Positions 7,569-18,166 of a stretch of 20,657 nucleotides of DNA are shown here, piece after piece (positions within the stretch are counted from its first letter, which is position 1; each line of letters begins with the position of its first letter). Position numbers and translations under genes: made by a program. The stretch lies in NCBI GenBank assembly GCA_015494005.1, contig WGCB01000703.1, forward strand, positions 1 to 20,657, given 5' to 3'. The notes beneath the pieces were generated by a model. It ran no database searches, was not told where the DNA came from, and saw only the letters and a list, made by a program, of their open reading frames with translations. The stretch comes from Caldilineaceae bacterium (GTDB taxonomy: Bacteria; Chloroflexota; Anaerolineae; Caldilineales; Caldilineaceae).

Positions 7569-7621
7569 AGACGTTTCTCTAATGTTGCGGTAACATGGGG
7601 TAAATGCTTACCCGGTATAAT
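7569..7621 (+). promoter_or_regulatory. htrA promoter with four 11-bp-spaced direct repeats
   Basis: AGACGTT (7569), TAATGTT (7580), TAACATG (7591) and AAATGCT (7602) recur at exactly 11 bp. After 7 bp comes a perfect TATAAT (7616-7621) followed by TGG. No acceptable -35 hexamer is present at 16-18 bp. The same arrangement precedes clpB and hsp20. Two inverted repeats overlap it: ATGTT-N5-AACAT (7582-7596) and GGGTAA-N4-TTACCC (7598-7613). The start of transcription would be near 7628, giving a leader of about 105 nt. Confidence 0.7.
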
Positions 7622-7733
7622 GGCGGGCGACGAGCGGTTTTTGTCGTACACCTTCGTCACCGAACAAGGTGAAAAAGAAGCGGTTCCAGTAAACAGCTGA
7701 AATATACGAGTGAAACAGGAAAGGAGAGCACTT

Positions 7734-9155
7734 ATGCGCGTGGATCTACGGAAACGGCTCCTAGTTATGGTGGGGGTCGTCTTGATTGCGGGTTTGATCT
7801 TGACCGGCTGCAGCAACGTGATCCCGGGGGGAGCCCTGCTGGCCACCCCGGATCAACCCCAGGCCCAGGAGAAGGCGGTGGAGAGCGTTCCAGTCGCCAA
7901 CCCTGCGCCCGCAGCACCTCTGGCCGCGTCGGGCCAGCCGGACCAGGAGCTCCTGGCCAGCCTCTACGAGCACACCCTGCCCTCGGTGGTGAACATCCAG
8001 GTCTCGGTAAAACCGGAGGCCGCGGGCGTGCTGCCGCCCCCCTTCGAGACACCGGACCAGCTGCCCCGCGGGGAAGGGACTGGCTTCGTCTACGATGACG
8101 AGGGCCACATCGTCACCAACAACCATGTGGTGGCCGAGGCGGACAAGATCACGGTCTACTTCTACAACGGCATGTGGGCGGACGCGGAGGTGGTGGCCAC
8201 GGATCCCCAGGCGGACCTGGCCGTGATCCAGGTGACCCCGCCGGAGGGCATCGAGCTGCGGCCCCTGCCCCTGGCCGAGCCGGACAGCATCAAGCCCGGC
8301 TACTGGGTGGTGGCCCTGGGCAGCCCCTTCGGCCTGGAAAACACCATGACCCTGGGCATCGTCAGCGCCCTGAGCCGGGGCCTGCCCGTGGGCCCGGGTG
8401 AAGGCCCGGCCCGATACACCCTGCCCGACGTGATCCAGACCGACGCCGCCATCAATCCCGGCAACTCGGGCGGCCCCCTGCTGAACCTGGAAGGCCAGGT
8501 GGTGGGGGTGAACTTCGCCATCAACTCGCCGGTGCGCGCCAACAGCGGCGTGGGCTTCGCCATCCCCGTGTCCGTGGTGCGGCGAGTGGTGCCGGCGCTC
8601 ATCGAGGAAGGCGCCTACCACTACGCCTACCTGGGCATCGCCGGCCGGACTGTGAATGCCGACGTGGCGGAGCAGGAGGACCTGCCCGAAAATCTGCTGG
8701 GCGCCTTCGTGGCCCAGGTGATGCCCGGCGGCCCTGCGGACAAGGGCGGCGTGGAGGCCGGGGATGTGATCGTGGCCATCGACGGCATGCCCGTGCGCCA
8801 GTTCGAGGACCTGGTCAGCTACCTGGTGACCAAGGCCGCGCCGGGCCAGAAGGTCACCCTGACCGTGGTGCGGGATGGCAAGGAGCTGGATCTCGATGTC
8901 AAGCTGGGCGAGCGCCCCACCCAGGCAGCGCCCGAGGGCGAGGCCACGGCGGTCACCATCGATGAGGCCATCGCCATCGCTCGAGACGCGGCCACCAAGG
9001 CCGGTATGATCGACAACATCGACGCCACCTCGGCCAAGCGGGACGTCCGGGACGGCGAACCTGTCTGGGTGATCACCCTGGAAGGGGATGGCAAGACGGT
9101 GACCGTGGTGGTGGACGCCAACACGGGTGACGTCCTGGAGATGGGATCCCGCTGA
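7734..9155 (+). CDS. htrA: HtrA/DegP-family serine protease, lipoprotein with PDZ and C-terminal PepSY-like domain
   Basis: I chose the ATG at 7734 because AAGGAGAG (7721-7728) sits five bases upstream; an in-frame GTG at 7710 lacks this. The 473-residue product starts with a basic N-terminus, a hydrophobic segment and the lipobox LTGC (C26), so it should be a lipid-anchored protein outside the membrane. The trypsin-like domain has the triad H131 (TNNHVV), D161 (QADLAV) and S245 (GNSGGP). A PDZ domain spans about 298-395. The final 65 residues (DEAIAIA ... VVVDANTGDVLE) look like a PepSY domain, which is unusual at the end of HtrA. It should degrade or refold damaged exported proteins. It has its own promoter with the 11-bp repeats and its own terminator, and stands just before grpE. 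Confidence 0.93.
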   Translation: MRVDLRKRLLVMVGVVLIAGLILTGCSNVIPGGALLATPDQPQAQEKAVESVPVANPAPAAPLAASGQPDQELLASLYEHTLPSVVNIQVSVKPEAAGVLPPPFETPDQLPRGEGTGFVYDDEGHIVTNNHVVAEADKITVYFYNGMWADAEVVATDPQADLAVIQVTPPEGIELRPLPLAEPDSIKPGYWVVALGSPFGLENTMTLGIVSALSRGLPVGPGEGPARYTLPDVIQTDAAINPGNSGGPLLNLEGQVVGVNFAINSPVRANSGVGFAIPVSVVRRVVPALIEEGAYHYAYLGIAGRTVNADVAEQEDLPENLLGAFVAQVMPGGPADKGGVEAGDVIVAIDGMPVRQFEDLVSYLVTKAAPGQKVTLTVVRDGKELDLDVKLGERPTQAAPEGEATAVTIDEAIAIARDAATKAGMIDNIDATSAKRDVRDGEPVWVITLEGDGKTVTVVVDANTGDVLEMGSR

Positions 9156-9215
9156 TCCCCCACTGCGGCCAGGCAGGAGAAGAATCGCCCGGACAGGTCA
9201 TCCGTCCTGGGCCAG

Positions 9216-9249
9216 GCTGGGTGGGGGAGTCTCCTCCACCCAGCTTTTT
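9216..9249 (+). terminator. Intrinsic terminator after htrA
   Basis: A 13-bp stem (9216-9228 with 9232-9244, one G-T pair) and a 3-nt loop are followed by TTTTT (9245-9249). It lies 60 bp behind the htrA stop and should separate htrA from grpE. Confidence 0.85.
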
Positions 9250-9321
9250 CACCACCTGGTCGGCGGCAACAGAACCGGGGAAACGAGCCGGAGAAAACGG
9301 TGGTAAAATAGGAGGTAGAGC

Positions 9322-10137
9322 ATGAGTTTCTACGACCCATTTGGTCGACCCAGCCGAGGAAGCCGACGCCGGCGTCAGCCCAGCGTCGAGGACTACTACC
9401 AGCTGGTCCAGGCCTACAAAGAGCTCTCCGCGGAGCGGGATGCGCTGGTCCAAAAGCTGCGGGAGCAGGAGGCCATCATCGCCCGGCTGGAGCAGGAGGT
9501 GGCTCGGCTGCACGAGGCCCTGCAGCGGCAGGAATCCCGGAGCGCCCGGCTGGAGCAAGAGCTGGCCCGGCTCCAGGAAGCGCTCCAGCAGCAGGAGCCC
9601 CGGGAGCACAAGATCAAGGTGAAGACGCCCGCCGAGGCTCCTGCCAGACCCCAGGCCCGGGAAGGGGAAGAGGAGGAGTGGAAGGAGCGCTACCTGCGCC
9701 TCCAGGCGGACCTGGAGAACTACAAGCGGCGCCTGGAGCAGCGCTACGCCAAGGAGGTGGACGAGCAGCGCCACCGCATCCTGCGGGACATGCTCTCCCT
9801 GGCGGATCACCTGGAGATGGCCCTGGCCCATGCCCGCAACCTGGAGGAGGCAGACCAGGCGGAGGCGATCAAGAGCTTCGAGGCCAACCTGGAGGCCACC
9901 CTCCGTGCCTTCCTGGAGACCCTGAAGCGCTACGGCGTGGAGCGCATGGAGGCCCAGGGGCAGCCCTTCAACCCCGAAGTCCACGAGGCCGTGGGCCAGA
10001 TCCCCAGCCAGGAGGTCCCAGAAGACCACGTGGCCCAGGTGGTTCGGGCGGGCTACGTGGAGAAGGAGCAGGGGGAGGACGGCAAGGACAGACTGCTGCG
10101 ACCAGCCCGGGTCCTGGTCAGCAAGGGAGGTGAGTGA
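9322..10137 (+). CDS. grpE: GrpE nucleotide exchange factor with long N-terminal coiled coil
   Basis: Protein of 271 residues, longer than the usual 170-210. Residues about 110-268 carry the GrpE core: the [12 protein letters not shown] helix, a long dimer helix, and the C-terminal beta domain with FNPEVHEAV and RPARVLVS. GrpE releases ADP from DnaK. The extra N-terminus has a basic GSRRRR patch followed by a coiled coil of charged heptads, including a tandem duplication (see the repeat at 9481-9606). An AGGAGG box (9310-9315) sits seven bases before the ATG. Stop and dnaJ start are three bases apart, so the two are co-translated. Only 72 bp separate the gene from the htrA terminator and no good promoter is visible there. 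No dnaK lies in the window. Confidence 0.95.
9481..9606 (+). repeat. 63-bp tandem duplication inside grpE (21-residue coiled-coil unit)
   Basis: Bases 9481-9543 and 9544-9606 encode residues 54-74 and 75-95. Both units begin ARLEQE, continue ARL.EAL and end in a Q-E-rich segment; the nucleotides are similar but diverged. The duplication lengthens the N-terminal coiled coil by three heptads per copy. Confidence 0.75.
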
Positions 10138-10139
10138 GC

Positions 10140-11129
10140 ATGGCGAAGGACTATTACAGCATCCTGGGCGTGCCCAAGACGGCGGACGAGAAGACCATCA
10201 AGAAGGCCTACCGCAAGCTGGCCCGCAAATATCACCCGGACGTGAACCCAGGAGACAAGGCCGCAGAGCAGCGCTTCAAGGAGATCAACGAGGCCTACCA
10301 GGTCCTGTCGGACCCGGAGAAGCGCAAGATGTACGACCGTTTCGGCCCGGACTGGGAGCAGTACGAGAAAGCGGGCGTGGGGCCAGAGGACTTCGCCCGG
10401 GGCTTCCGGCCCGGCGGCCCCGGGGGACCTGGCGGCGCCTACACCCGCACGGTTACGCCCGAGGAGTTCGAGCAGATGTTCGGCGGTGGCATGGGGGGCA
10501 TGGGCGCCGGCGGCTTCGAGGACATCTTCGAGTCCCTCTTCGGCGGCCGGGGTGGCCCGGGCGTGGGGGCCCGGGGCTTCCGGGAGCGCACGCCCCTGCG
10601 TCGCCGGGGCCAGGACATCACCGTGCCCGTGGAGATCACCCTGGAGGAGGCCTTCCACGGCGCCAGCCGCACCCTGCAGATGGACGACGGTCGGCGCATC
10701 GAGGTGCGCATCCCTCGGGGCGTGAAGACCGGCTCCCGGGTGCGGGTCAGCGGGGAAGGCGCGCCGGGCATCGGCGGCGGCAAGCCCGGGGATCTCTACC
10801 TGGAGATCCGGGTGAAGCCCCATCCCCGGTTCCAGCGGGAAGGGGACAACCTGCGGGTGAAAGTGCCGGTGGATCTCTACACCGCGGTCCTGGGCGGGGA
10901 GGTCCAGGTGCCCACCCTGGAGCGTCCCGTGGCCCTGAAGATCCCGCCGGGCACCCAGAACGGCAAGGTCTTCCGCCTGCGGGGGCTGGGCATGCCCAAC
11001 ATGAAGAACCCGGACAAACGGGGCGACCTCTACGCGGTGGTGGACGTGAAGGTCCCCACGGATTTGACGCCGGAGGAGAAGGAGCTCTTCCAGCGCCTGC
11101 GGGAGCTGCGGCGAGCTCGGGTGCACTAG
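10140..11129 (+). CDS. dnaJ: DnaJ-family co-chaperone, zinc-finger-less (CbpA type)
   Basis: Start at ATG 10140, three bases after the grpE stop, with AGGGAGGTGA just upstream; an in-frame GTG at 10134 would overlap grpE. The 329-residue protein has a J domain (about 3-68) with HPD at residues 32-34. A Gly/Phe-rich linker (about 80-140, [10 protein letters not shown]) and two C-terminal beta domains follow. There is no CXXCXGXG zinc region and no cysteine at all, so it belongs to the CbpA/class B group rather than classical DnaJ. It delivers clients to DnaK and stimulates its ATPase through the HPD loop. The close coupling to grpE and the following hspR form a typical chaperone operon, here lacking dnaK. 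Confidence 0.93.
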
Positions 11130-11184
11130 GACGGAAGCAGAAGCGAGGAGAGAGAAGACCAGGCATGGAGGAGGGGGGTAAGCC

Positions 11185-11583
11185 ATGGTAGAGGTGCAGA
11201 TTCGTTACGCCATTACCCGGCACCGGGAAGAATCGGAGCCGGTCTACACGCCGGACGTGGCCGCGGCCCTGGCCGGGATCAGCCGCCAGGCCCTGGAGGT
11301 CTACCGGCGAGAGGGGCTGGTCCAGCCCAAGGTGCGGGCCGACGGGACCCTGGGCTACAGCCTGGCCGACATCCGCCGGCTGGCTCGGATCCGGCGTCTG
11401 CGGCAGGAGATGGGCCTGGATCTGGCGGCTGTGGAGGTGGTGCTGCATCTGCGTCGCCAGGTCACGGAGCTGCGCCGTCAGCTGGCCGAGACCCAGCGGG
11501 CCATGGAGCGGCGAGAGCAAGAGCTGCTCCAGGAGATCCAACGGCTGCGTCGTCAGCTGGATGAGGCATCATTCTGGTTTTAA
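11185..11583 (+). CDS. hspR: MerR-family regulator, HspR-like
   Basis: Protein of 132 residues. The N-terminal half is a MerR-type winged helix-turn-helix (about 18-85: VYTPDVAAALAG, the helix-loop with YRREGLV, then GYSLADIRRL). The C-terminal half is a leucine/arginine-rich coiled coil ending in an aromatic SFWF. Position behind grpE-dnaJ and similarity to HspR repressors of Actinobacteria support the name. HspR represses chaperone operons with DnaK as co-repressor. A GGAGGGGGG sequence precedes the ATG. The gap to dnaJ is 55 bp without a terminator, so it is likely in the operon. I found no HAIR-type operator (CTTGAGT-N7-ACTCAAG) in the window, so its targets are not visible here. Confidence 0.82.
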   Translation: MVEVQIRYAITRHREESEPVYTPDVAAALAGISRQALEVYRREGLVQPKVRADGTLGYSLADIRRLARIRRLRQEMGLDLAAVEVVLHLRRQVTELRRQLAETQRAMERREQELLQEIQRLRRQLDEASFWF

Positions 11584-11666
11584 TCATTGAGCTTTCGGGG
11601 GACCAGGAAGGCTTGACGGGGGATCGGAGCAAGCCAGGAGATCGGACCAAGGAGGAGATGGGAGAA

Positions 11667-12752
11667 ATGGGAGAGTTTGTCTTCAACATCGGGGCGAAGG
11701 TCTACTGCCGGGATGGCCAGTGTGGCAGGCTGGCCAAGGTGGTGGTGGACCCCAAGACCAAGCGCATCACGGATCTGATCGTGGAGAAGGGATTCCTGCT
11801 CAAGGAAGACCGGGTGATCCCCGTCTCTGTGGTGGAGAGCACCAGCGATGAAGCCATCCAGCTCTCCATCGAGAGCAAGGAGCTGCCCAAGTTCCCCAAG
11901 TACCGGGAAGTGGAGCTGGAGGAGCCGGCCCCGGATTGGAAGATGCGAGAGCCCTACCAGCTGGAGGACGTGGTGCACTGGGCCGCGGTCTACGGGGATG
12001 TGCCGGTGCTGGAGAGCCTGGCGCCCAAGGTGCGCGTGCGGGTCCACGAGGGCATCAGCGGTGGCGCCACGGTCATCGCCCGGGACACGCCCATCTTCAC
12101 CGTGGACGGCATGGTGGCCCGGGTCCACCACGTGATCACGGACCCAGAGAGCGGGGAGATCCGCTACATCGTCGCCCGCCGGGGCATCCTGCCCTACCGG
12201 GTGGTCATCCCCGCGACCCTCATCGAGGGGGTGGACGAGGAGGGTGTCAGCCTGAACGCCACCCTGGAGGACCTGAAGAAGCTCCAGCGCTGGACGCCCC
12301 GCTCGCCGGTGGAGATCCTGGCGGAGATCACCCAGAAGCTGCGGGAGTCGGAGCGTGATTTCAGCCGGGTTACCGCCACGGTGGAGAAAGGGGTGGTGCG
12401 CCTGAGCGGCACTGTGGCCGATGAGGCGGCCAAGGAGGAAGCCGAGGCCATCGCCCGCTCCGTGGCCGGGGTCATCGACGTGGAGAACGTCCTGGACACG
12501 GACACGGCCATCGTGGCGGAGGTGACCGCGGCCCTGGCCCAGGATCCCCGCACCAAGGACGCGGTCATCGAGGTGATCAGCGACCGAGGTGTGGTGACCC
12601 TGAAGGGCGAGGTGGAGAACGCGACGATCCGCCGGGCTGCGGAGGTCATCGCCTCCCAGCAGCCGGGGGTGGTGGCCGTGATCAACGAGCTGGAGGTGGT
12701 CCCGAAAGAGGAGCTGCCGAACTTCCCGGCCCCGCCACCCCAGTCCTTGTAG
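11667..12752 (+). CDS. PRC-barrel and BON domain protein
   Basis: Two in-frame ATGs (11658, 11667) follow AAGGAGG (11649-11655). I prefer 11667 for spacing, giving 361 residues; a TTG at 11613 is also open. The protein has two PRC-barrel-like units: one near the N-terminus (FNIGAKVY ... ITDLIVEKG) and one about residues 145-190 (DTPIFTVDGM ... RYIVARRG). Two BON domains follow at about 235-290 (GVVRLSGTVADE) and 295-355 (GVVTLKGEVENA). PRC barrels often bind RNA or partner proteins, and BON domains often bind membranes or other macromolecules. No signal peptide or membrane segment is seen, so it is probably cytoplasmic. Position 83 bp after hspR suggests stress-linked expression. The precise function is unknown. 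Confidence 0.8.
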   Translation: MGEFVFNIGAKVYCRDGQCGRLAKVVVDPKTKRITDLIVEKGFLLKEDRVIPVSVVESTSDEAIQLSIESKELPKFPKYREVELEEPAPDWKMREPYQLEDVVHWAAVYGDVPVLESLAPKVRVRVHEGISGGATVIARDTPIFTVDGMVARVHHVITDPESGEIRYIVARRGILPYRVVIPATLIEGVDEEGVSLNATLEDLKKLQRWTPRSPVEILAEITQKLRESERDFSRVTATVEKGVVRLSGTVADEAAKEEAEAIARSVAGVIDVENVLDTDTAIVAEVTAALAQDPRTKDAVIEVISDRGVVTLKGEVENATIRRAAEVIASQQPGVVAVINELEVVPKEELPNFPAPPPQSL

Positions 12753-12755
12753 CCT

Positions 12756-12786
12756 GTCTCCCTCGCCCGGTCTCGGGCAGGGGGAC
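12756..12786 (+). terminator. Strong hairpin after the grpE-dnaJ-hspR-PRC/BON operon, no U-tract
   Basis: Three bases after the stop there is a 13-bp stem with one bulged C and a 4-nt loop: 12756-12763 pairs with 12779-12786, and GCCCG (12765-12769) with CGGGC (12774-12778). No T-run follows. It may act as a terminator or a 3'-end stabiliser. Confidence 0.5.
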
Positions 12787-12852
12787 AAACCTGGTCCATC
12801 CTCGGGCTGCGAGGGTGCGGCCAGTCCAATTTGCACAACGCTCGTCTCCCAG

Positions 12853-12899
12853 ATGTGTGCCTGATGGTAGCTTTGCTGAGCATCCCCCTCGGCGCACAT
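12853..12899 (+). other. Imperfect inverted repeat upstream of the baeRF gene
   Basis: ATGTGTGCC (12853-12861) faces GGCGCACAT (12891-12899), eight of nine pairing plus one G-T in RNA, with an inner GATG/CATC pair (12863-12866, 12881-12884). It lies 42 bp before the start codon in a 188-bp gap where no clear promoter could be read. It may be an operator or a structured leader. Confidence 0.35.
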
Positions 12900-12940
12900 T
12901 TGTGGCAGAGGAGCTATCCAACCACGTGAGGAGAACGCCT

Positions 12941-14185
12941 ATGAATGAGAAAGAATACCTGGAAAGCTTGACCCTGGACCTGATCGGCGACGATGAGCGA
13001 GGCTACGATTTCATCACCGACGCCGGGGTCCAGCTGCTCAAAGAGCTCCAGACCGAGGAGCCCCGCATCCTGTCCCTCTACCTGGACATCTCGCCGGAGC
13101 GCATCCAGCACGAGCCGGTGCCCATCCGCTACCGGCACCTGGTGGAGAAGGTGGCTGAATCCATCGAGGACAAGGAGAACCGGCGCATGTTCCAGGCCGT
13201 GGCCGACAACATCGGCGCCATGCTGCTCAACGAGTACAACCTGATGCGGGGCAAGGGATTGGTCATCTTCGCGGTGCCCGAGAAGTACTCGCCCAAGGGC
13301 CACCGGGAGGTGAAGTACGAGACCATGGTCCGCTATCACCTGCCCGCGCCGCCCAAGGATGACCTGCAGTGGGGCGTCCTGCCTGTCCTGACCCCGCTGC
13401 TGGTGCAGATCGACGAGAACGAGCCCACCGGCGTGATCCTGGTGGACCGGCAGCGGGCCCGGTACTTCGTCTACTACATGGGCGAGGCTGCGGAGTACTC
13501 GGTCATGGAGTTCGATCCCACCCCTCAGAAGACCCGGGCCCTGGGCTACGGCGCCCACAACCACGAGCAGTGGCTGGAGGAAAAGTACAAGGCCCATCTG
13601 CGCCATGCCGTCCTGGTGGCGGACCGGCTGAACCAGCTGGCCGACTGGAAGTGGATGGCGGTGGGGGGCACGGATCAGACGCCCGAGGACTTCGTGGATC
13701 GCCTGCCCAAGCACCTGAAACAGAAGCTCCTGGGCACCTTCCAGATCGACGTGGACGCCAACTACAACCAGGTGCGGGACGAGGTGGCCCCCATCGTGCA
13801 CCAGGCGGAGGTCCAGGAGGAGCGGGCCTTCCTGGAGCGCTGGATCGGCGAGCTGGAGCGCCGGGGGGACCGGGCCGTCTTCGGCCTGGCAGACACCACC
13901 TTCGCCCTGCAGCAGGGGCGCATCGACACCCTGATCACCCAGCCCTACTTCGAGCACAAGGGCTGGCAGTGCCAGGACTGCGGCGGCCTCATCGCCGACC
14001 TCATGGACGAGCCACCCAGCCACTGCCCCTACTGCGGTGGCGAGCTGGTCACCGTGCCGGACATCGTCACCCTGGCTGCCGCCCAGACCCTGGAGCATGG
14101 CGGCCATGTGGAGGTGGTCCGGGACGAGGAGAACCAGAAGCTCCTGGAGAAATACGGCAACTTCGGCGCTTACCTGCGCTTCTAG
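12941..14185 (+). CDS. baeRF-type (eRF1/Dom34-like) release-factor-related protein with C-terminal zinc ribbon
   Basis: Start at ATG 12941, with GAGGAGA at 12928-12934; the upstream open frame has no family similarity. The 414-residue protein resembles bacterial archaeo-eukaryotic release-factor-like (baeRF) proteins. It has an N-terminal domain (LSLYLDI) and a middle domain beginning GVILVDRQRARYF near 165. An eL30-like third domain (AVFGLADTTFALQQGRIDTLI) follows at about 305-335. A zinc ribbon lies within it, with CxxC pairs C344/C347 and C362/C365. In the place of the eRF1 GGQ loop it reads GAHNHEQW (204-211), so a classical hydrolysis loop is absent but a glutamine (Q210) remains. It likely acts on ribosomes or peptidyl-tRNA; this is inference. 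It sits between the hspR operon and clpB and has a strong terminator of its own. Confidence 0.75.
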   Translation: MNEKEYLESLTLDLIGDDERGYDFITDAGVQLLKELQTEEPRILSLYLDISPERIQHEPVPIRYRHLVEKVAESIEDKENRRMFQAVADNIGAMLLNEYNLMRGKGLVIFAVPEKYSPKGHREVKYETMVRYHLPAPPKDDLQWGVLPVLTPLLVQIDENEPTGVILVDRQRARYFVYYMGEAAEYSVMEFDPTPQKTRALGYGAHNHEQWLEEKYKAHLRHAVLVADRLNQLADWKWMAVGGTDQTPEDFVDRLPKHLKQKLLGTFQIDVDANYNQVRDEVAPIVHQAEVQEERAFLERWIGELERRGDRAVFGLADTTFALQQGRIDTLITQPYFEHKGWQCQDCGGLIADLMDEPPSHCPYCGGELVTVPDIVTLAAAQTLEHGGHVEVVRDEENQKLLEKYGNFGAYLRF

Positions 14186-14203
14186 GAGGCCCGGAAGAGC
14201 TTG

Positions 14204-14235
14204 AGCCCGGCGGGGGATCCTCGCCGGGCTTTTTT
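14204..14235 (+). terminator. Intrinsic terminator after the baeRF gene
   Basis: A perfect 9-bp stem AGCCCGGCG (14204-14212) / CGCCGGGCT (14222-14230) with a 9-nt loop leads into six T residues (14230-14235). It lies 19 bp after the stop codon. Confidence 0.92.
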
Positions 14236-14280
14236 GACTCCGCCCAGGGCGTTGGGCGGGTGGCGCCTTCAGGACAGCTC

Positions 14281-14333
14281 TAACTTTACGCTAATACTCC
14301 GCTTGTGTTTGTCAAATGGAGAGCCGCTACACT
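14281..14333 (+). promoter_or_regulatory. clpB promoter with four 11-bp-spaced direct repeats
   Basis: TAACTTT (14281), TAATACT (14292), TTGTGTT (14303) and AAATGGA (14314) lie at exactly 11-bp steps. Then come 7 bp and TACACT (14328-14333), followed by TGG. The geometry is identical to that before htrA and hsp20. A TTGTCA (14310-14315) resembles a -35 but is only 12 bp from the -10. Transcription should begin near 14340, about 60 nt before the start codon. Confidence 0.7.
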
Positions 14334-14353
14334 GGAGAAAGAGGAATCATCGT

Positions 14354-14367
14354 GTGCATGGCTGCAC
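14354..14367 (+). other. Small hairpin in the clpB leader
   Basis: GTGCA (14354-14358) and TGCAC (14363-14367) flank a 4-nt loop in the predicted clpB 5' leader, 19 nt before the AAGGAGG ribosome-binding site. It does not cover that site. A regulatory role is only possible. Confidence 0.3.
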
Positions 14368-14401
14368 GAAAACGAACGGAATCATAAGGAGGGAACAGCC
14401 C

Positions 14402-17005
<2,604 letters not shown>

Positions 17006-17025
17006 GCCCTGGAATGAAGACACCG

Positions 17026-17053
17026 GCGGGGGCGGTCCTGGGATCGTCCCCGC
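17026..17053 (+). other. Hairpin between clpB and the DUF5335-like gene
   Basis: Bases 17026-17037 pair with 17042-17053 (12 bp including two G-T pairs, 4-nt loop), 21 bp after the clpB stop. No T-run follows. It may allow partial read-through into the next gene or stabilise the clpB message. Confidence 0.45.
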
Positions 17054-17100
17054 TGCATACCTGAACTGACCACGTTCAAACCTTGAGGAGGAGAGAGACC

Positions 17101-17460
17101 ATGAAGAATCGCAAGCTGGACCGGAGTGAGTGGGAACGGGAGCTGGCCAAGCTCAGCGAGGAGGAGTACGACTGGGACGTGATCCTGGAGACCTTTCACC
17201 CGGAGCTGGGCTATGGCGTCATCGCCGAGCATGTGCCCCTGCTGGCCGTGGACGTGGACGTGAAGGATGGCCGGGACGACGCGGTGCTCATCAGCTGGGG
17301 GCCGGAGCCGGACCTGAACAGCCACGCCCAGTACGATCCAGTGGAGATCTGGCTGGCCCTGGACGAGGACGGCCATCCCACGTCCCTGGAGGTGATCAGC
17401 AAGGACGGCTCCAAGGTGTTCGCCACCTTCCATGGCCCGTACCAGGAGCAGGCCGGGTAG
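17101..17460 (+). CDS. Small acidic protein, DUF5335-like
   Basis: Start at ATG 17101, with GAGGAGGAGAG at 17085-17095; product 119 residues. It opens with RKLDRSEWERELAKLSEEE, followed by alternating beta-type segments (VPLLAVDVDVKDG, VEIWLALDEDG, SLEVISKDGSKVFATF). It is strongly acidic, with no signal peptide, membrane segment or cysteine. The KLDRSEW opening and the final strands resemble DUF5335 proteins, whose function I do not know. It lies 95 bp after clpB without a clear terminator or promoter between, and just before hsp20. Co-expression with clpB in stress is therefore plausible but unproven. Confidence 0.65.
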   Translation: MKNRKLDRSEWERELAKLSEEEYDWDVILETFHPELGYGVIAEHVPLLAVDVDVKDGRDDAVLISWGPEPDLNSHAQYDPVEIWLALDEDGHPTSLEVISKDGSKVFATFHGPYQEQAG

Positions 17461-17474
17461 CGGGTCTCCAACAT

Positions 17475-17549
17475 AAGCAGGCCACAAACATTCGTCTTAT
17501 CCTTCGCTAACATTGCGCTGATGCTGTTCAAACAGACCCGGCGTAGAAT
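17475..17549 (+). promoter_or_regulatory. hsp20 promoter with five to six 11-bp-spaced direct repeats
   Basis: AAACATT (17486), TTATCCT (17497), TAACATT (17508), TGATGCT (17519) and AAACAGA (17530) lie at exact 11-bp steps; a weak AAGCAGG (17475) extends the series. After 7 bp comes TAGAAT (17544-17549), followed by TGG. The arrangement equals that before htrA and clpB. Transcription should start near 17556, giving a long leader of about 135 nt. Confidence 0.7.

Positions 17550-17692: not shown

Positions 17693-18166
<474 letters not shown>

Follow-up and report, generated by a model that had tools for sequence, protein, structure and literature searches.

Tandem 11-bp repeat arrays at heat-shock promoters of Chloroflexota as probable operators of an OmpR/PhoB-family response regulator

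A stretch of 20,657 nucleotides from a Caldilineaceae bacterium (Chloroflexota, class Anaerolineae; GCA_015494005.1, contig WGCB01000703.1, positions 1 to 20,657 of the forward strand), here called the window, contains three promoters, in front of an htrA-like gene, clpB and hsp20, with arrays of 7-base-pair (bp) elements repeated every 11 bp. Judging from sequence comparisons, we consider it quite likely that a single OmpR/PhoB-family response regulator uses these arrays as tandem operators to turn on the heat-shock (protein quality control) regulon of Chloroflexota. The box, its promoter layout, the genes downstream, its spread, its co-occurrence with a specific regulator and the adjacency of both in several lineages were computed directly. 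An activator of this type acting on a stress regulon had been proposed from the window alone (hereafter, the original prediction), and it is the best-supported reading, given the conservation of the layout and the co-occurrence and gene order of that regulator.

Results

Arrays at the three promoters of the window

The arrays of the window, their -10 boxes and the genes downstream of them are on the plus strand. The 13 elements of the original prediction, with their constant 11-bp step, were all found at the positions given there. Four of them (AGACGTT, TAATGTT, TAACATG, AAATGCT) form the htrA array (7569..7608), four (TAACTTT, TAATACT, TTGTGTT, AAATGGA) the clpB array (14281..14320) and five (AAACATT, TTATCCT, TAACATT, TGATGCT, AAACAGA) the hsp20 array (17486..17536). 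Exactly 7 bp past the last element, as had been described, lie the -10 boxes TATAAT (7616..7621), TACACT (14328..14333) and TAGAAT (17544..17549), respectively, each followed by GG. The base preferences also hold, with A or T at position 1 and C or T at position 4 in all 13 elements, A at position 3 in 12 and T at position 7 in 10. The 4-bp spacers are not random, since most have C as the final base, so the repeat unit is an 11-mer near TAAYRTTnnGC. In agreement with the reported absence of a normal -35, direct reading revealed no TTGACA-like box 17 bp upstream of the -10 boxes; the second-last element sits at the -35 place and the last one within the spacer.

In a hold-out test, a matrix built from two arrays was used to score the third, with 400 full-length first-order Markov sequences, read on both strands, as control. 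The real arrays scored 28.9 (htrA), 27.2 (clpB) and 25.6 (last four elements of hsp20), all above the top scores in the 400 simulated windows (19.2, 20.8 and 20.2, respectively). When spacings from 8 to 14 bp were compared, only 11 bp worked. The bare two-element pattern calls for caution against over-reading, as it is not enriched in the source genome (11 rows versus 10 for its reversed control), and the signal of the arrays lies in the number of elements and the promoter layout. Searches confined to the window found no match to the CIRCE consensus and none to that of HAIR at up to 3 mismatches.

Further arrays in the source genome

The source assembly (820 contigs, 4.17 Mb, given as 87.9% complete, with the window as contig 703) contains the two-element pattern at seven distinct places, five of them with the full promoter layout; those in C325 and C588, without it, were set aside. 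A profile built from the alignment of seven arrays recovers those seven arrays and three new places at E<=10. Arrays equally frequent inside coding regions would have spoken against the prediction; all 10 matches in this genome lie upstream of genes or, in C323, before a contig end. The named clpB genes nearest to that of the window come from Anaerolineae and Caldilineaceae.

Outside the window, the layout (7-bp elements, 11-bp steps, 7 bp, TAnnnT) is present at seven promoters. In C358, arrays precede the gene of a double-thioredoxin protein and a second hsp20, and in C535 the gene of a BON protein and a third hsp20. The array in C780 precedes the gene of a DUF2267 protein. A weaker one in C779, with only two good elements, probably has the gene of a NEW3-domain protein as its target. 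In C323 (L001), a full array faces the contig end, its target gene being off the contig. This last array is divergent from a gene for a sigma-70 region 2 protein.

Targets among relatives in the class

A first profile matched 33 of 100 genomes at E<=0.01, and a second one, built from 59 aligned matches (55 distinct rows), identified 95 array-positive genomes among 249 of the class at E<=0.001, the source genome being counted in both. The layout is kept upstream of relatives of hsp20, clpB and htrA; a lack of conservation there would have spoken against the prediction. Around the matches, 171 loci were read (L021-L069 and L091-L213 without L102, some overlapping). They contain 160 distinct arrays with a matrix score of at least 30, and after dropping 11 with less than 400 bp downstream, 149 were left for the count of targets, congeners being counted separately.

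Classical chaperone and protease genes (hsp20, clpB, dnaK, grpE, htpG, ftsH, lon, groES and htrA) were found downstream of 108 of the 149 arrays, no other gene being included in this figure. Another 26 arrays precede other genes of our panel, which was partly derived from the matches themselves (NEW3, YugP, M50 protease, small Zn protein, transaldolase and 918-aa protein, among others), and 15 match no panel gene. By target, the arrays divide into hsp20 (62), clpB (19), dnaK and a small zinc-finger-like protein, located ahead of dnaK or YugP wherever the next gene was visible (13 each), grpE (4), htpG, thioredoxin and NEW3 (3 each), and ftsH, lon, groES, M50 protease and YugP (2 each), with one array each for htrA, thioredoxin reductase, transaldolase and a 918-amino-acid (aa) protein. 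When panel genes from relatives were checked in Pfam, FtsH matched as an AAA protein only and the small Zn protein had no match. The stress regulon of the original prediction is supported and turns out to be wider than proposed, including also dnaK, groESL, grpE, htpG, lon, ftsH and trx.

Some of the array loci have peculiarities of their own. A small cysteine-rich protein (CANCGI...CCxGCxxGGPCxCDY), with no Pfam match, is recurrent between the array and dnaK (L057, L091, L388, L391) or before YugP (L036, L389). In L056 (G047:C22), the array precedes the gene of a 918-aa NACHT protein with HEAT repeats instead of a chaperone gene. Nine of the 15 unmatched arrays come from a single genome, G092, seven of them with the variant element TAACYTT. 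This variant box (L148, L173, L189, L194-L197, L200) consists of TAACYTT/TAACCCT elements at the same distance to the -10. Downstream of it are genes for receiver-domain proteins, radC-like and prenyltransferase-like genes (recognized by eye) and, at L197, a gene whose product is an OmpR-type regulator according to Pfam. It is perhaps a second box, that of a paralogous regulator.

Spread beyond the class

In a sample of 301 genomes from the phylum, an array match at E<=1e-4 was obtained in 26, of which 21 do not belong to the class. We read the 14 stretches with the highest scores; 13 are from outside the class, and a single genus accounts for five. All 14 have one of the expected genes downstream, namely groES (8), hsp20 (4), clpB (1) or that of a NEW3 protein (1). 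Some promoters outside the class have the -10 about 8 bp past the last element, as seen by eye, and a degenerate third element. We also scored the region upstream of clpB in 78 named genomes. Among the eight Chloroflexota, five score 23.8 to 35.4 and the other three 19.2, 7.6 and -1.5, while no array was found in the clpB upstream regions of the 70 genomes outside the phylum, with scores of at most 7.9.

A response regulator that accompanies the arrays

The source genome has 21 winged-helix matches, other OmpR-type regulators among them. No array in promoter layout was found at these loci (21 scanned whole with the element matrix, 18 rescanned just upstream of the gene); L071 has two elements only and L087 a weak array-like stretch. 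One of the loci, L084 (C417), encodes a 470-aa protein of unusual architecture, which carries the winged helix C-terminally and has a weak match to the TCAD9 domain, under the cut-off, in its middle part. Among the neighbours in array loci, only four response regulators were found, and they are from different subfamilies.

The lead to a regulator came from the comparison of six small array-positive genomes, where 30 of the 44 winged-helix matches had a sequence locus. One response-regulator family gives reciprocal best matches in all six, being a mix of orthologs and paralogs (the G109 ortholog is a different gene). Within it there is a conserved group, A6, with 66-92% identity and a C-terminus that is mostly GYxFVDF. 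With an A6 profile at E<=1e-85, the regulator was found in 179 of the 249 class genomes, in single copy in all but three. It is present in 83 of 95 array-positive versus 96 of 154 array-negative genomes (Fisher, p 1.2e-5). By family, taking the 230 genomes with a printed family and leaving out 19, it is present in 32 of 33 array-positive versus 13 of 23 array-negative families (p 2.6e-4). The best matches in the phylum sample split into two groups, at <=5.3e-94 or >=1.0e-87; with the cut in this gap, the regulator is found in 23 of 26 array-positive versus 97 of 275 other genomes (p 1.2e-7).

The regulator is a member of the OmpR/PhoB family near KdpE, MtrA and RpaB, its best solved relatives being KdpE, 6lgq, MtrA and RegX3. 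Two representatives, L308 and L311, reach the cut-off in none of the 25 NCBIfam families listed for either protein (bits/cut-off for L311: MtrA 218/300, YycF 216/340, PhoB 200/296; for L308: KdpE 229/325, RpaB 229/330, PhoB 208/296). It does not exceed the equivalog cut-off of KdpE, MtrA, PhoB, YycF, RpaB or CpxR, and many of its relatives are named KdpE in the JGI annotation despite a score under the KdpE cut-off.

Gene order around the regulator

A histidine kinase gene often precedes that of the regulator. A match to this kinase, which has GAF, PAS, HisKA and HATPase domains, was found up to 1.5 kb from the regulator in 32 of 66 genomes, where some stretches end earlier. The G106 locus runs kinase, regulator, array, small Zn protein, dnaK, YugP, htrA, array and hsp20. 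That of G073 runs regulator, array, small Zn protein and dnaK, the regulator directly before the array being an A6 member. We read 20 further regulator loci, for which we mainly chose genomes that have long contigs and lack an array call. Eight of them have hsp20 up to 1.5 kb from the regulator, and in four of these eight (G072, G248, G105 and G203, from one family) the order is regulator, array, hsp20. In G426 and G412, which represent two families that do not belong to the class, kinase and regulator are encoded divergently from array and hsp20. In G079 the regulator precedes YugP. Altogether, a heat-shock gene lies up to 1.5 kb from the regulator in 10 of 66 genomes, versus none of 20 FHA-winged-helix loci and none of 48 other winged-helix loci.

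Other genes of the window

The htrA-like gene encodes a serine protease with a PDZ domain (7734..9155) and, from gene spacing, is possibly the first gene of an htrA-grpE-dnaJ-hspR unit. The unit would continue with grpE (9322..10137), a dnaJ-type protein gene (10134..11129) and the gene of an HspR-like MerR-family protein (11185..11583), which is under the NCBIfam HspR cut-off (69.8 bits versus 105). The other two array-bearing promoters are those of clpB (14402..17005) and hsp20 (17693..18166). Immediately upstream of the clpB array there is a release-factor-like gene of baeRF family 10 (12815-14185).

Discussion

Proposed mechanism

We suggest the following model. The GAF/PAS histidine kinase, often encoded beside the regulator, would sense proteotoxic or redox stress and phosphorylate it. 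Each 11-bp repeat would then take up one regulator monomer, the monomers following each other head to tail along the same face of the DNA. With the -35 region and the spacer occupied by the last two repeats, the regulator could substitute for the missing -35 and recruit the polymerase with the main sigma factor to the -10 box 7-8 bp downstream. We infer here the binding, the phosphorylation, the signal, and activation rather than repression, as well as the action of the same regulator in the genome of the window, where its gene was not found.

We lean towards a broader proposal, which the comparative data would also accommodate. In many Chloroflexota lineages, the core heat-shock response would run through one ancestral, highly conserved kinase-regulator pair rather than an alternative sigma factor or a repressor, with dnaK, groESL, clpB, hsp20, htpG, lon, ftsH and htrA activated through tandem 11-bp arrays standing in for the -35.

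Several observations weigh against assigning the arrays to this regulator. Its ortholog is missing from the source genome, where the best match (2.3e-74) is at paralog level. This may be an assembly gap, since 12% of the genome is missing and the box and the regulator occur together in G001, G006, G011 and G013, of the same family. The four g16 genomes in this family have neither at these thresholds, and the five g9 genomes sampled all have the regulator and no array call. The A6 group is absent from two of the six lead genomes, G069 and G119 (79% and 84% complete), and no ortholog at E<=1e-85 is present in 12 of the 95 array-positive genomes of the class; G054, among these 12, is given as 100% complete and has a borderline array. 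In the opposite direction, the regulator is present in 96 class genomes for which the scan gave no array at E<=0.001. Some of these do carry arrays that were missed, and the scan is insensitive, because family f28, negative at that threshold, has arrays adjoining the regulator. No heat-shock gene was found within 1.5 kb in 56 of the 66 regulator loci; moreover, four of the 66 had been fetched for arrays on the same contig, two of them among the ten positive ones, and without these four the count is 8 of 62. The regulator was picked after its gene had been sighted next to an array and in the six small genomes, the cut between orthologs and paralogs was fixed after the scores were known, and this was the one response-regulator family profiled across genomes. 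The p-values ignore descent, which is a confounder, and the counts assume that the 249 genomes were identical across repeated searches.

Alternative explanations

The same regulator, or another winged-helix protein, could be a repressor released by heat, acting on the array as HrcA, HspR and CtsR do on their sites. Operators across the -35/-10 region are able to block the polymerase, and Hik34 of Synechocystis is thought to be a negative regulator of heat-shock genes, according to excerpts of PMC3264485. We regard a repressor as unlikely, since the distance to the -10 is constant (7-8 bp), the -35 is missing and the tandem arrays lie upstream of the start rather than over it, features that all fit activation.

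The geometry of the arrays also recalls the SARP/AfsR-type one-component activators, with a winged helix and a BTAD domain, which could read them by sigma adaptation. According to excerpts of PMC10936776, the direct repeats of SARP promoters are spaced by 11 or 22 bp, and the 3' one overlaps a poor -35 and is separated from the -10 by 8 bp; this fits the 7 bp of the class and the approximately 8 bp of some promoters outside it. BTAD matches were found in all 36 array-positive genomes searched, being weak only in G069 and G088. However, a unit of 7+4 bp is equally a trait of PHO boxes, as described in excerpts of PMC4415409. When the array loci of relatives, which mostly include 0.5-1.5 kb upstream and at most 3 kb downstream, were searched with a profile of the five BTAD-type winged helices of the source genome, there was no match, and in the source genome itself only one SARP (L087) is preceded by an array-like stretch, which is weak and lacks the promoter layout. 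The gene-order link belongs to a response regulator and not to a SARP. Taken together, these points make a SARP reader quite improbable.

It seems very unlikely to us that the arrays are PHO boxes and that the heat-shock genes belong, as a branch, to the phosphate regulon. The 7+4 architecture is common to both, and the array element presumably resembles the TTAACA of Bacillus. However, no phosphate gene was recognized among the 149 arrays (the unmatched ones were inspected by eye, and no search was aimed at pst/pho promoters), and the regulator is under the PhoB cut-off given above (L311: 200 versus 296 bits).

Finally, an FHA-winged-helix regulator, controlled by a Ser/Thr kinase encoded divergently, is hardly tenable as the reader and was rejected because array-positive genomes exist without it: although the protein is present in 200 of 249 class genomes, and in two array-positive genomes has 54 and 57% identity to that of the source genome, each of the three having the kinase gene divergent from it, 13 of the 95 array-positive genomes, near-complete ones included, have no match to the protein at E<=1e-20, its association with the arrays is weak (82 of 95 array-positive versus 118 of 154 array-negative, p 0.07), and none of its 20 loci has a heat-shock panel gene or an array within 1.5 kb. 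The array-positive genomes without the FHA protein and those without the response regulator share one genome, G118. As an observation apart, the divergent pair of FHA-winged-helix regulator and Ser/Thr kinase is conserved at L085 (source contig C107), L317 (G088) and L321 (G124).

Significance

If the arrays are indeed operators of the OmpR/PhoB-family regulator, a large and mostly uncultured phylum would gain a heat-shock switch with a scannable DNA box, a candidate kinase-regulator pair and a list of targets. A positive two-component route would join the known heat-shock systems of bacteria, and a conserved regulator often named KdpE would acquire a function that is testable in cultured relatives. 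Among the matches listed in our literature search, titles and abstract openings, with subscription papers and preprints outside the scope, contained no account of this box or of a heat-shock two-component system in Chloroflexota.

Comparison with known systems

The targets overlap with those of HrcA/CIRCE, HspR/HAIR, CtsR and sigma-32, systems in which the operators are inverted or differently spaced, or which use alternative sigma factors. CpxR, CssR and MprA are OmpR-family regulators that activate an HtrA protease and, in the case of MprA, also a small heat-shock protein. Their regulons respond to envelope stress, unlike the core set of dnaK, groESL and clpB found here. Rre1, in turn, is a NarL-type regulator. 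Two-component control of htpG and groESL is known from Hik34 of Synechocystis, described in excerpts of PMC3264485 as a likely negative regulator, the loss of which markedly lowered the heat induction of two genes only. The candidate system shares with Hik34-Rre1 a two-component control of heat-shock genes and differs in its 11-bp array, none being described for Hik34-Rre1 in those excerpts.

In SARP promoters, 7-bp repeats occur every 11 bp, and those of AfsR end about 8 bp before the -10 and overlap a poor -35, while the operator of PimR does not overlap the -35 (excerpts of PMC10936776 and PMC5930380). The arrays are similar in repeat spacing and in distance to the -10. Unlike SARPs, which act on actinobacterial secondary-metabolism genes, they precede heat-shock genes and no SARP gene is linked to them.

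The PHO boxes of PhoB/PhoP consist of tandem 11-nucleotide units, in which seven bases are conserved and four less so, and binding to them is head to tail (excerpts of PMC4415409). The arrays agree with this description, having at least two 11-nucleotide direct repeats of 7 conserved and 4 less conserved bases. An OmpR-type regulator also accompanies the operator, by co-occurrence and adjacency in the relatives and, in the source genome, with other OmpR-type regulators only. They differ from PHO boxes in a TAAYRYT-like element, in having heat-shock instead of phosphate genes as targets and in a regulator under the PhoB cut-off. The architecture of the operator is familiar, the box and the regulator group are new, and the regulon and its breadth are unexpected.

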